From Actinomycetota bacterium (GTDB lineage Bacteria > Actinomycetota > Acidimicrobiia > IMCC26256 > JAENVU01): a stretch of 37,684 nt of DNA. The stretch is from positions 1-37,684 of the forward strand of contig VGBT01000023.1 of the NCBI GenBank assembly GCA_016870395.1, written 5' to 3'. Positions 22,732 through 27,239 of this stretch are shown one piece after another (within the stretch, counting starts at the first letter, position 1; each line of letters starts with the position of its first letter). The notes under the pieces are model-generated. The model ran no database searches, was not told where the DNA came from, and saw nothing but the letters and a program-made list of their open reading frames with translations. The position numbers and the translations under genes were made by a program.

Positions 22732-24756
22732 TCATCCGACGGCCTTGAGCTCGCGCTTGAGCTCGTTGACCTCGTCGCGCAATCGCGCCGCCTCCTCGAA
22801 GCGGAGGTCCTTCGCCGCCTCGTGCATCTCCTCCTGAAGGCTCTGGATCAGCCGACCCAGCTCGTCGGGCGGCACGCCGCGCAAATCGGCGAACAGCGCG
22901 CTTGCCCGGCGCGACCGCCCTCTCCCCCGGCCATTCGCCACGGTGTCGTCGTCCTCGCGCAATCGCACCATCTCGAGGATGTCGGTGACCTTCTTGCGGA
23001 TCGTCTGCGGGTCGATCCCATGCTCGGCGTTGTAGTCGAGCTGGCGCTTGCGCCGTCGATTGGTCTCCGAGATCGCGTGACGCATGGAATCGGTGACCTG
23101 GTCGGCGTACATCACGACCTGGCCCTCCACGTTGCGCGCGGCGCGCCCGATCATCTGGATCAGGCTCGTCGCCGAGCGGAGGAAGCCCTCCTTGTCCGCG
23201 TCGAGGATCGCCACCAGCGACACCTCGGGCAGGTCGAGACCCTCCCGCAACAGGTTGATCCCCACGAGCACGTCGAACTCGCCGAGGCGCAGCGCCCGCA
23301 GGATCTCGACCCGTTCGAGCGTGTCGACCTCGGAGTGCAGGTAGCGCACGCGGATTCCCAGCTCGAGCAGGTAGTCGGTGAGGTCCTCGGCCATCTTCTT
23401 CGTGAGCGTCGTGACCAGGATCCGCTGGTCCCCCTCGGTGCGGGCGTTGATCTCGGCGACCAGGTCGTCGATCTGCCCCTTCGTCGGGCGCACGACCACC
23501 TCGGGGTCCATCAAGCCCGTCGGGCGCACGATCTGCTCGACGACCTTGGTGGACACCTCGAGCTCGTAGGGGCTCGGCGTGGCCGACATGAACACCACCT
23601 GGTTGACCTTGTCGTCGAACTCCTCGAACCGCAGCGGCCGGTTGTCCATCGCGGATGCCAGGCGGAAGCCGTGTTCGACGAGGGTCTCCTTGCGGGAGCG
23701 GTCGCCCTCGTACTGGCCGTGGAGCTGGGGCACCGTCACGTGGCTCTCGTCGAGTACGCAGAGAAAGTCGCGAGGGAAGTAGTCGAGCAGGGTGTACGGC
23801 GCCTCTCCGGGCGCGCGCCCGTCGAGGTGGCGCGAGTAGTTCTCGATCCCGGAGCAGAAGCCGACCTCGCGCATCATCTCGAGGTCGTAGGTGGTGCGCA
23901 TGCGCAGGCGCTGGGCCTCGAGGAGCTTGCCCCGGTTCTCGAGATCGCGCAGTCGCTCGACGAGCTCGGCCTCGATGCCCTCGATCGCGCGACGGAGCTG
24001 CTCCTCCTGGGTGACGTAGTGGCTCGCCGGGAAGAGCACGAGCGTCTCGAGCTCGTTGGTGATCTCCCCGGTGAGCGGATCGACTTCCGCGATGCGCTCC
24101 ACCTCGTCGCCGAAGAGCTGGATGCGCACACCGCGCTCCTCGTAGGCCGGGAAGATCTCGATCGTGTCGCCTCGCACCCGGAACTTGTTGCGCACGAACG
24201 CCATATCGTTGCGCTCGTACTGCAGCTCGACGAGCCGGCCCAGGATGTCACGCTGCTCGTGTTCCTCGCCGACGTTGAGGGTGAGCAGCTGCTGCGCGTA
24301 CATCTCCGGCGAGCCGAGGCCGTAGATGGCTGAGACGCTGGCGATGATCACGACGTCAGGACGGGAGAGCAGCGCGCTGGTGGCAGAGTGGCGCAGCCGA
24401 TCGATCTCGTCGTTGATCGAGCTGTCCTTCTCGATGTAGGTGTCAGTGGACGGGAGGTAGGCCTCAGGCTGGTAGTAGTCGTAGTAGCTGACGAAGTACT
24501 CGACCCGGTTGCGGGGGAAGAACTCGCGGAACTCTGCGGCGAGCTGGGCGGCGAGGCTCTTGTTGGGGGCGAGGATCAGGGTGGGCCGCTGGACCTCGGC
24601 GATGAGCCCTGCGATGGTGAACGACTTGCCCGAGCCCGTGATCCCCAGGAGCGTCTGGTACCGCTCGCCGGCCTCGACGCCGGCGGAGAGCTCTGCAATC
24701 GCCCGCGGCTGGTCGCCCGCGGGGGCGAAGTCGGAGACGAGCTCGAACTCGGGCAC
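22732..24756 (-). CDS. uvrB: Excinuclease ABC subunit B
   Basis: A 674-residue helicase-like protein that verifies DNA damage and recruits UvrC. Walker A is [10 protein letters not shown] (near residue 38), the beta-hairpin that clamps DNA includes [11 protein letters not shown], and the Walker B region is CVLDESHV. Helicase motifs V and VI appear as [20 protein letters not shown] and QMIGRAARN. The C-terminal UVR domain ([17 protein letters not shown]) contacts UvrC and UvrA. The GTG start has a G-rich region upstream. It directly follows a DUF559 gene with a nine-base gap. Confidence 0.97.
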
Positions 24757-24765
24757 GCACCCACC

Positions 24766-25782
24766 CTACCGACCAGGCGTGACCTCGCCCACGCCCGCCC
24801 CATCAACTCCCCCAACCACTTCCGCGCGCCTTCTGGACCCCTGCGTCCAACTTTCGCGCGAAGGTGAGCCGGACATCACCTCCTGCAGCCGCTGCACGAC
24901 TCGACGCGGCTGGTCGACCACTTCGGACCAGCCGAATCGCTGCACACGGAACCCGGCCGCCTGCAAGCGTCGATCTCGGTCCGCGTCACGGCGGCGGTCG
25001 ACGAGCCCCGAGTGGAATCGCGCGCCGTCGACCTCGACCACGACGCGAGCAGACCGAAACAAAAAGTCGACCCGCCCGATCCAGGCGTTTCCGTCGCCCA
25101 GGTCGACCTGCCGCTCCGGCACCGGGAGCCCAGCCTCCCGGGTCAGCGCGACGAAGCGGGCCTCGAGCTCGCTCTCCGGGGGCACGTAGTCCGGCCCTCG
25201 AGCATCGAGCAGGTCTCGAAAGACCACCAGCTTCCTTCGACCGGGCTTCGCGACCTCGAGGTACACCCTCGACAGGGCCTCGAAGCTCACCATCTTGCGG
25301 CTGAGACAGTGGTCCACCAGCCGCTCGACGCGCCGCGGATGAAGCACCGCTGTGAGGTCCATGAGCGTTCTGCCGATCGACGTGCACGGGATCCCACGGA
25401 CAATCGTCTGCTGCGAATTCGGGAGCGTGTTTGTCCGGTGGGCAAGGACACCGCGCCGACGGAGGACGCCGCCGGGAAGGGTCGTCAGCTCGACGCTCTG
25501 GCGCCTCATGCCGGGGAGCCCGAAGAGTGCGGCTGCGCACCGATGGGAGGCCACCGCCGCTGTGCGCGCGCCCAAGACCGCGGCCATCACCTCCGACTCG
25601 AACGTGGTCTCGGTACCCAGCAGACGCAGCACCCCGTGTGCGGTGCGGCACCAACGACCGTTCTCGCAGCGATGCTGAACGAATGACGTGTTGCCTCCCA
25701 GGAGGAGCACTTGCCGGGTGCTGAAGACCCCGTGCTGTCTGGACGCGAGCTCCTCGACGCGCCGATCGAGATCGGACGCCAT
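24766..25782 (-). CDS. AbiEi-like N-terminal domain plus DUF559 (PD-(D/E)XK nuclease-like) protein
   Basis: A 338-residue protein in two parts. Residues 8-60 (ELASRQHGVFSTRQVLLLG and RTAHGVLRLLG) resemble the winged-helix domain of AbiEi-type antitoxins. Residues 205-300 match DUF559, a Vsr-like endonuclease fold: Glu205/207, RVDFLF with Asp239, and VVVEVDGARFH with Glu250 and Asp252 form a plausible active site. The middle carries RTLMDLTAVL, typical of this group. The ATG at 25782 opens MASDLDRRVEELA but has no obvious ribosome-binding site. The last 15-20 residues (from about 305) are encoded by a palindromic repeat; a second copy lies just upstream of the gene. Function is unknown; such genes are often multicopy in actinobacteria. 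It could be a defence, toxin-antitoxin or repeat-associated protein. Confidence 0.8.
   Translation of the reverse strand: MASDLDRRVEELASRQHGVFSTRQVLLLGGNTSFVQHRCENGRWCRTAHGVLRLLGTETTFESEVMAAVLGARTAAVASHRCAAALFGLPGMRRQSVELTTLPGGVLRRRGVLAHRTNTLPNSQQTIVRGIPCTSIGRTLMDLTAVLHPRRVERLVDHCLSRKMVSFEALSRVYLEVAKPGRRKLVVFRDLLDARGPDYVPPESELEARFVALTREAGLPVPERQVDLGDGNAWIGRVDFLFRSARVVVEVDGARFHSGLVDRRRDADRDRRLQAAGFRVQRFGWSEVVDQPRRVVQRLQEVMSGSPSRESWTQGSRRRAEVVGGVDGAGVGEVTPGR
24819..24864. repeat. Imperfect palindromic repeat, copy A (inside the end of the DUF559 gene)
   Basis: About 46 bases with outer arms CTTCCGCGCG and CGCGCGAAGG and inner arms TGGAC and GTCCA around CCCTGC. It aligns along its length with 25832-25877: both share TTCTGGACCC, GTCCAAC and CGCGCGAAGGTGA. 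Same orientation as copy B. Confidence 0.75.
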
Positions 25783-25831
25783 GGGGACGAACGCTACGAC
25801 GCCCCTGTGACACGCACTCCGTGTGCCCAGA

Positions 25832-25877
25832 CCTTCGCGCGGTTTCTGGACCCGGAGGTCCAACCACCGCGCGAAGG
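25832..25877. repeat. Palindromic repeat, copy B (upstream of the DUF559 gene)
   Basis: Outer arms CCTTCGCGCGG and CCGCGCGAAGG (11 bp, perfect), a 4-base mismatch on each side, inner arms TGGACC and GGTCCA (6 bp), loop CGGA. It lies between the stop of the membrane-protein gene and the start of the DUF559 gene, both on the minus strand. It could also act as a terminator, though no T-tract follows. Confidence 0.8.
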
Positions 25878-25890
25878 TGACTGCGTTGGG

Positions 25891-26589
25891 TCAGCCGGCC
25901 TCGAGGTGGTGGACGGTGCCCCCGAGAAGGAGGACGCCGGACCCGGCGATGCCAACGTCCGGTGCCACACGGCTGCGCAAGGTCAGCTCGCCTACGGACG
26001 CCGATGCACGCACGGTCTGTCGCTGGTAGCGCTCCCCGAAAACGGTGAACGCGTCGCGCTGCGCCTCGACCCTGCGGACGAGCTCGTCGAAGTCGGGCAC
26101 CGCCAGGTCGCTCGACGCGAAGGCAGCCGTCCCGAGATCCGTCGCGCGAGCTCTCGCCTCCACCACCTCCGCCTCGAGCGCGGCCTCGTCCGGAAGCCCG
26201 ATGGAGGCCCTTTCGTAGTGGCGCCAGGCCTCGTTGGCCCGGTTGACACGCGGGATCAGCGCGGCGAGCGCGGGAAGTCGCTCGGTCGGCGACACCTCGG
26301 CCAGGGTCGCAGGGGTGTCCAGGTTGACGTCCCCGAATCGTTGCGCGGCCCGGTGCAGGTCGGCGTGCGCCGGCAGCAGGACCTCGTTCTCCCTCCGGGT
26401 CTCACGGCTGATCGCGCTCAGCGTCAGCACCGTGGTCGCGGCAAGGGTCACCAGCCCCACGAGGAACGCCACCCCGAGGCAGAACACCTGCACTTGTAAG
26501 GGGTCCGTGCAACCGCGCCGACGCCGCGCGTCGGGAGCTCGTCCGACCCCGAGGCTCGGGACTGGCATGAGATGCCATGCCATCCGCAT
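25891..26589 (-). CDS. Hypothetical membrane-anchored protein, possibly a truncated sensor
   Basis: About 232 residues if the ATG at 26589 is used; ATG 26568 and a TTG at 26622 that overlaps the coaE stop (TTGA) are alternatives, and none has a strong ribosome-binding site. A basic N-terminal stretch (DARRRRG) precedes one membrane helix (FCLGVAFLVGLVTLAATTVL). A charged, helical extracytoplasmic region of roughly 140 residues follows (RETRRENEVLLPAHADLHR, EAALEAEVVEARARATDLG). A second short hydrophobic segment (VGIAGSGVLLLGG) ends the protein abruptly. This layout is that of the input half of a membrane sensor, such as a chemoreceptor or GGDEF protein, that has lost its cytoplasmic part. 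No domain is recognised with confidence. It lies just downstream of coaE. Confidence 0.55.
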   Translation of the reverse strand: MRMAWHLMPVPSLGVGRAPDARRRRGCTDPLQVQVFCLGVAFLVGLVTLAATTVLTLSAISRETRRENEVLLPAHADLHRAAQRFGDVNLDTPATLAEVSPTERLPALAALIPRVNRANEAWRHYERASIGLPDEAALEAEVVEARARATDLGTAAFASSDLAVPDFDELVRRVEAQRDAFTVFGERYQRQTVRASASVGELTLRSRVAPDVGIAGSGVLLLGGTVHHLEAG

Positions 26590-26618
26590 GGGCCCGGTGA
26601 CCCGGCCCCTCGAGGTGG

Positions 26619-27239
26619 TCAACCAGCCGCAGACCCCTTCGCCTGGTGCCGGCGCACCAGATCGGTCCAGATGTCCTGCACCTGGGCCTCGAGGGTGGCG
26701 CGGTCGCCCGAGTTGTCCACCACGAAGGTGGCGATCGCCCGCCGTTCCTCGTCGGTGGCCTGCGCGGCTATCCGGGCCTCGGCGTCATCTCGCGCTACGC
26801 CGCGCTCCTCGAGGCGGGACAGACGCAGCGCACGCGGCGCCTCAACCACGATGACGGCTTCGTAACCGCGCTTGGCCGCTGTGCCCGACTCGACAAGCAA
26901 CGGCACGTCCATGACGACGATCGCGTCCTGAGGCGCCTCTGCCATCCGCTTCCCGAACGCGGCGTGGATCGCCGGATGTGTGATCGCCTCGAGCGCGGCC
27001 CGCGACTCGTCGGTCGCAAACGCCTTCGCGGCCAGGGCCGGGCGATCGAGACTGCCGTCCGCGCGCACCACGTCCGCACCGAAGCGCTCAACGATCGCGT
27101 CGAACGCCGGCGTTTTCGGTTCCACCACTTCCCGCGCGACCGCATCGGCGTCGAGCACCACTGCGCCACGCTTCGTGAGCATCTCGGCCACGGTCGACTT
27201 GCCGGCGCCGATTCCTCCCGTCAAGCCTACGAGCAGCAC
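26619..27239 (-). CDS. coaE: Dephospho-CoA kinase
   Basis: A 206-residue P-loop kinase for the last step of coenzyme A synthesis, phosphorylating the 3'-hydroxyl of the ribose. The P-loop is GLTGGIGAGKST at residues 5-16; VLDADAVAREVVEP supplies the catalytic aspartate region, and ITHPAIHAAF, VMDVPLLVESG and the lid-like RLSRLEERG follow. The C-terminal FVVDNSGDRATLEAQV is also family-typical. The GTG at 27239 has AGGA about 9-10 bases upstream. It belongs to the actinobacterial rpsA-coaE-uvrB neighbourhood, here interrupted by a two-component system. Bacterial members are usually near 200 residues, so length is normal. Confidence 0.95.
   Translation of the reverse strand: MLLVGLTGGIGAGKSTVAEMLTKRGAVVLDADAVAREVVEPKTPAFDAIVERFGADVVRADGSLDRPALAAKAFATDESRAALEAITHPAIHAAFGKRMAEAPQDAIVVMDVPLLVESGTAAKRGYEAVIVVEAPRALRLSRLEERGVARDDAEARIAAQATDEERRAIATFVVDNSGDRATLEAQVQDIWTDLVRRHQAKGSAAG

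Follow-up and report, generated by a model that had tools for sequence, protein, structure and literature searches.

A gene encoding an AbiEi-like DNA-binding half fused to a DUF559 nuclease was found to lie between two same-orientation copies of a palindrome of about 48 bases. Most of its relatives examined are built the same way, each with its own palindrome that is usually also scattered around its genome. This architecture resembles a self-spreading repeat system run by an enzyme family not previously tied to such repeats, although binding, cutting and copying by the protein are inferred. The gene was first noticed in a stretch of 37,684 nucleotides (hereafter the window) of an Actinomycetota genome of about 3 Mb (contig VGBT01000023.1, assembly GCA_016870395.1). 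It occupies positions 24766-25782 of the minus strand, with an ATG at 25782, and encodes a protein of 338 aa in which AbiEi_4 (residues 7-54) scores just above its Pfam cut-off and DUF559 (residues 238-302) is detected with an E-value of 1.8e-10. The upstream palindrome (25830-25880) lies about 48-98 bases before the start codon and folds far better than chance (z -7.6, 0 of 200 shuffles as good), whereas the downstream copy (24818-24866) is degenerate (z -2.3, 8 of 200 for 24819-24866). The two copies match at 37 of 48 bases, while the next best place in the window reaches 27 and 20 shuffles of the window reach at most 29. No further copy was found in the window or, at up to 3 mismatches in a 20-base core, in the genome.

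The observation in the earlier note, which reported both palindromes, stands with small corrections. It had placed the downstream copy at the last codons of the gene, but this copy covers about residues 306-322, within a C-terminal tail (residues 304-338; 24769-24873, minus strand) that is probably disordered. Most homologues end near residue 305 and model confidence (pLDDT) falls to about 50 there, so the frame appears to run through the repeat. The unit is located between uvrB (22732-24756, minus strand) and coaE (26619-27239, minus strand). A 243-aa ORF at 25891-26622 of the minus strand, without any Pfam family above cut-off, overlaps the end of coaE by four bases; no homologue of this ORF was found in the coaE-uvrB region of the relatives checked.

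To examine the generality of this layout, we conducted a six-frame search of 247 genomes of the same class, which revealed homologues in 129 of them; a prior peptide-pattern search of species genomes had found none. At 88 loci with enough flank, the stretches before and after the gene were aligned to each other, and 74 exceeded the 99th percentile of cross-locus comparisons, against 10 of 206 control ORFs. Most of these repeats are palindromes of 40-60 bases. At a strict score, a palindrome was detected at either flank of 54 of 89 genes and at both flanks of 26 of 89, against 8 of 207 and 0 of 207 control ORFs, respectively. This palindrome detector was ungapped and undercounted, since several loci (L) that it called negative (L043, L045, L048, L067, L119 and L121) have matched ends. 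Median palindrome centres lie 68 bases before the start and 25 bases after the stop, and the flanking copies were 20 direct, 9 inverted and 8 ties. A few units (L048, L067, L119 and L121) have long matched inverted ends, up to about 60 bases, that are only weakly palindromic and more like transposon ends, while L059, L077, L098 and L045 bear tandem or overlapping arrays of the palindrome beside the DUF559 gene. Of the 14 loci lacking matched ends in the flank alignment, the window gene and L008 nonetheless carry a repeat; the window gene fails because its downstream copy lies further inside the CDS than the stretch compared. DUF559 orthologues kept in place with an intact active site but without matched end repeats do exist in one genus (L095, L104, L108 and L115, of which L095 and L108 have other repeats upstream), but they are a minority. 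Loss of the active site as the reason for missing repeats was not supported, as 23 of 26 palindrome-negative genes keep it.

Palindrome pairs match within a locus but not between loci. The two copies of one locus are at least 75% identical in 34 of 41 loci where both were detected, a level reached by only 6 of 1614 cross-genome pairs and by 0 of 26 pairs between different DUF559 genes of one genome. Palindrome similarity rises with protein identity (Mantel rho 0.13, 6 of 2000 permutations as high), with a median similarity of 0.55 above 60% protein identity and 0.17 below 35%. The overall correlation is weak because most pairs are too distant to share a palindrome; the signal lies in the close pairs, which may partly share it by common descent. 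Although their cores differ, the outer arms of the upstream palindromes of L041-L127 share a loose consensus like (C)CGTTCTGGCG, and the 7-mer CCGTTCT occurs in 5 of 41 against 0.1 expected.

In most genomes tested, the palindrome of the gene is also dispersed. We counted about 20 solo copies in genome (G) G001, about 7 and 12 copies of two families in the complete genome G200, about 11 in G228, about 11 in G134 and about 14 in the complete genome G021. Two extra copies of the L111 palindrome lie within about 5 kb of its gene (G200:C1:2228507-2238176), hinting at local spread. In a comparison with 25 palindromes, all 21 DUF559-bearing genomes matched, although for some of them the matches are mostly the flanking copies, and the foreign matches seen join relatives (a type from the window's genome, G000, in G002 of the same genus, and a G225 type in G087, whose proteins are 76% identical). 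Nine genomes without a detected homologue matched none of the 25, which serves as a control for false positives only since these genomes could still hold other palindromes of their own. In the window's genome, the palindromes of the other two DUF559 genes have further copies (four other places for the L008 type and one for the L002 type), while that of the window gene has none beyond its two flanking copies. A pattern scan of 84,980 species genomes for the window's palindrome gave a single hit, in an alphaproteobacterial MAG, which we judged to be chance. In G021, the one genome where position was examined, 11 of 13 solo copies lie outside any ORF of 120 aa or more, and most are within about 36 bases of a gene end, mostly the 3' end, several being between convergent genes. 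REPs exhibit the same preference (PMC3733652).

Comparison of sister genomes revealed that a whole unit and several solo palindromes are present in one genome and absent from the same site in another. The G021 unit (412139-413219) is missing from the same place in G036 (flanks 95% identical), G039 (90%) and the more distant G031. The empty sites of G036 and G039 hold a short CCGAAGTT stretch equal to the end of the palindrome, unlike that of G031. Solo copies at five loci are present in one sister and absent from the same place in another, while others are shared. Because one short end motif (CGAA-S-TTCG) often remains at the empty site, insertion at that motif and loss by slippage cannot be told apart, and the occupied and empty pairs compared show no consistent target-site duplication. 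Additionally, coaE and uvrB are neighbours across the order with a short gap, which among the genomes checked holds a DUF559 unit only in G000, G004 and G006, the G004 unit (L042) being in opposite orientation to those of the window and of G006 (L041). Solo palindromes without a DUF559 gene were found in this gap in some others (L139, L140, L146 and L149). The G004 and G006 proteins are 51% identical where coaE is 81% identical, which suggests separate arrivals or fast divergence.

The AbiEi-like part of the protein (residues 1-200; 25183-25782, minus strand) comprises a winged helix plus a following domain. It matches the PADLOC AbiEi model (residues 4-179, E-value 1.7e-26) and, by Foldseek, the AbiEi antitoxin 6y8q (E-value 1.9e-5). 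The nuclease part (residues 203-303; 24874-25176, minus strand) matches the DUF559 structure 3hrl, the EDxHD homing endonuclease I-Bth0305I (3r3p, Foldseek TMt 0.80) and Vsr. The likely active-site residues are E207, D239, E250, D252, H257 and D266. Of these, E207, D239, E250, H257 and D266 are kept in 83-86 of 87 homologues and D252 in 74, so the nuclease appears to be under selection to stay intact.

Taken together, the comparisons strongly support the gene and its palindromes forming a unit, as the earlier note had proposed, and we consider it likely, although unproven, that this unit belongs to a REP-like mobile system run by a nuclease unrelated to RAYT. In this model, a dimer of the protein would bind the palindrome of about 50 bases through its AbiEi-like half, one subunit per arm, and the Vsr-fold (EDxHD) nuclease would nick or cut at or near it. 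Host repair or replication would then copy the palindrome alone or the whole palindrome-gene-palindrome unit into new sites between genes. The related I-Bth0305I dimerises on a target of nearly 60 bp (PMC3943268), which would suit such a palindrome. As each lineage of the protein has its own palindrome, several independent gene-palindrome families coexist in one genome. In the window, the downstream end of the unit is decaying and its palindrome is not dispersed, so this unit is either a recent arrival or inactive. Copy numbers are low (about 5-20), and G036 and G039 keep solo copies without a detected gene, though their assemblies are incomplete. A bolder possibility, slightly less likely than not, is that these units are a previously undescribed class of mobile DNA, spreading both themselves and solo palindromes by nuclease-triggered repair with no transposase, and that they may also help explain REP-like palindromes elsewhere that lack a dedicated transposase.

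Other explanations seem less likely. The AbiEi-like half could be a repressor, with the palindrome as its operator and the dispersed copies as binding sites of a regulon or of chromosome maintenance, the nuclease acting elsewhere. AbiEi antitoxins probably bind inverted repeats upstream of their own gene, the upstream copy lies about 70 bases before the start codon, palindrome and protein co-vary, and some copies stay at orthologous positions in sister genomes. Yet the second copy is at the 3' end of the gene, the solo copies of G021 lie mostly next to gene 3' ends, several between convergent genes where no promoter is expected, and repertoires differ between sisters; we regard this alternative as unlikely. 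It is more doubtful still that the hairpins are transcription terminators insulating a mobile gene from its neighbours, with the dispersed copies being ordinary terminators. While the hairpins are strong and often just after stop codons, terminators need not match in sequence, yet the two copies of a locus do, and copies differ between families of the same genome. Moreover, some loci have matched ends that are only weak palindromes, one copy sits upstream of the gene, and strong palindromes are rare at control ORFs.

The palindromes could also be moved by an unrelated transposase or by host recombination and replication slippage, the nuclease gene being a passenger or removing hairpins. Empty sites with a single end motif fit slippage, the protein has no known transposase domain, and repeats around the gene allow deletion or inversion. 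However, no RAYT-type (Y1) transposase (PF01797) was found in 13 genomes, including G000, each palindrome family tracks one DUF559 lineage and the nuclease site is conserved, which makes this reading improbable. Chance repeats around an ordinary solitary nuclease gene, conceivable from the window alone where there is a single pair with one degenerate copy, are refuted by the match between the two copies and by the recurrence of the layout at most homologous loci.

REP palindromes are among the best known bacterial repeats, and the enzyme tied to them is the Y1 transposase RAYT (REP-associated tyrosine transposase). As in the present units, a single gene is flanked by two copies of a palindrome also dispersed extragenically, mostly near gene 3' ends, gene and palindrome co-vary, and several families may coexist in a genome (PMC2817692, PMC3733652). 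Here, however, the enzyme is a predicted Vsr-fold EDxHD nuclease with an AbiEi-like half rather than a Y1/HUH transposase, the palindromes have lineage-specific sequences with no common GTAG tag apparent, and copy numbers are about 5-20 rather than over 100. CGTC-tagged REPs are likewise dispersed extragenic palindromes without a known dedicated transposase (PMC3733652), but with other palindrome sequences and in other phyla. I-Bth0305I shares the catalytic fold and the conserved E/D/H/D pattern and is a selfish nuclease acting on a long target (PMC3943268), yet the present gene is not in an intron or intein, has repeats at both ends and encodes an AbiEi-like half in place of the I-Bth0305I DNA-binding regions. 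In contrast to AbiE toxin-antitoxin systems, no AbiEii nucleotidyltransferase toxin is adjacent to the window gene, a nuclease is fused on and repeats lie at both ends. Vsr and VsrA-type DUF559 proteins belong to the same nuclease superfamily but are stand-alone repair-type nucleases; Caulobacter VsrA, a DUF559 protein, is required for a DNA-damage response in vivo (PMC12907096). Unlike classical insertion sequences, the window gene encodes no transposase domain, although some loci do have matched inverted ends. No description of such a system was found in the open-access literature, most subscription papers and bioRxiv not being covered. A second, unrelated enzyme family bracketed by and co-varying with dispersed palindromes would mean that this way of life arose more than once. 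It would also suggest a role for many AbiEi-DUF559 genes of this phylum that now have none, and it supplies a natural set of protein-target pairs for a long-site nuclease.

Carriage by phages or plasmids was rejected as the main route of spread, since no match was found in phages, none in viral contigs by single-protein query (the alignment being too diverse to query), and only one in plasmids. The layout also occurs outside the class, as 12 of 28 loci of a phylum-wide set pass the same flank test. These include the plasmid-borne homologue, L160 (2507-3376), from the Tsukamurella tyrosinosolvens plasmid NZ_LR134454.1, which has a palindrome pair TGCGGTGGAT...ATCCACCGCA.
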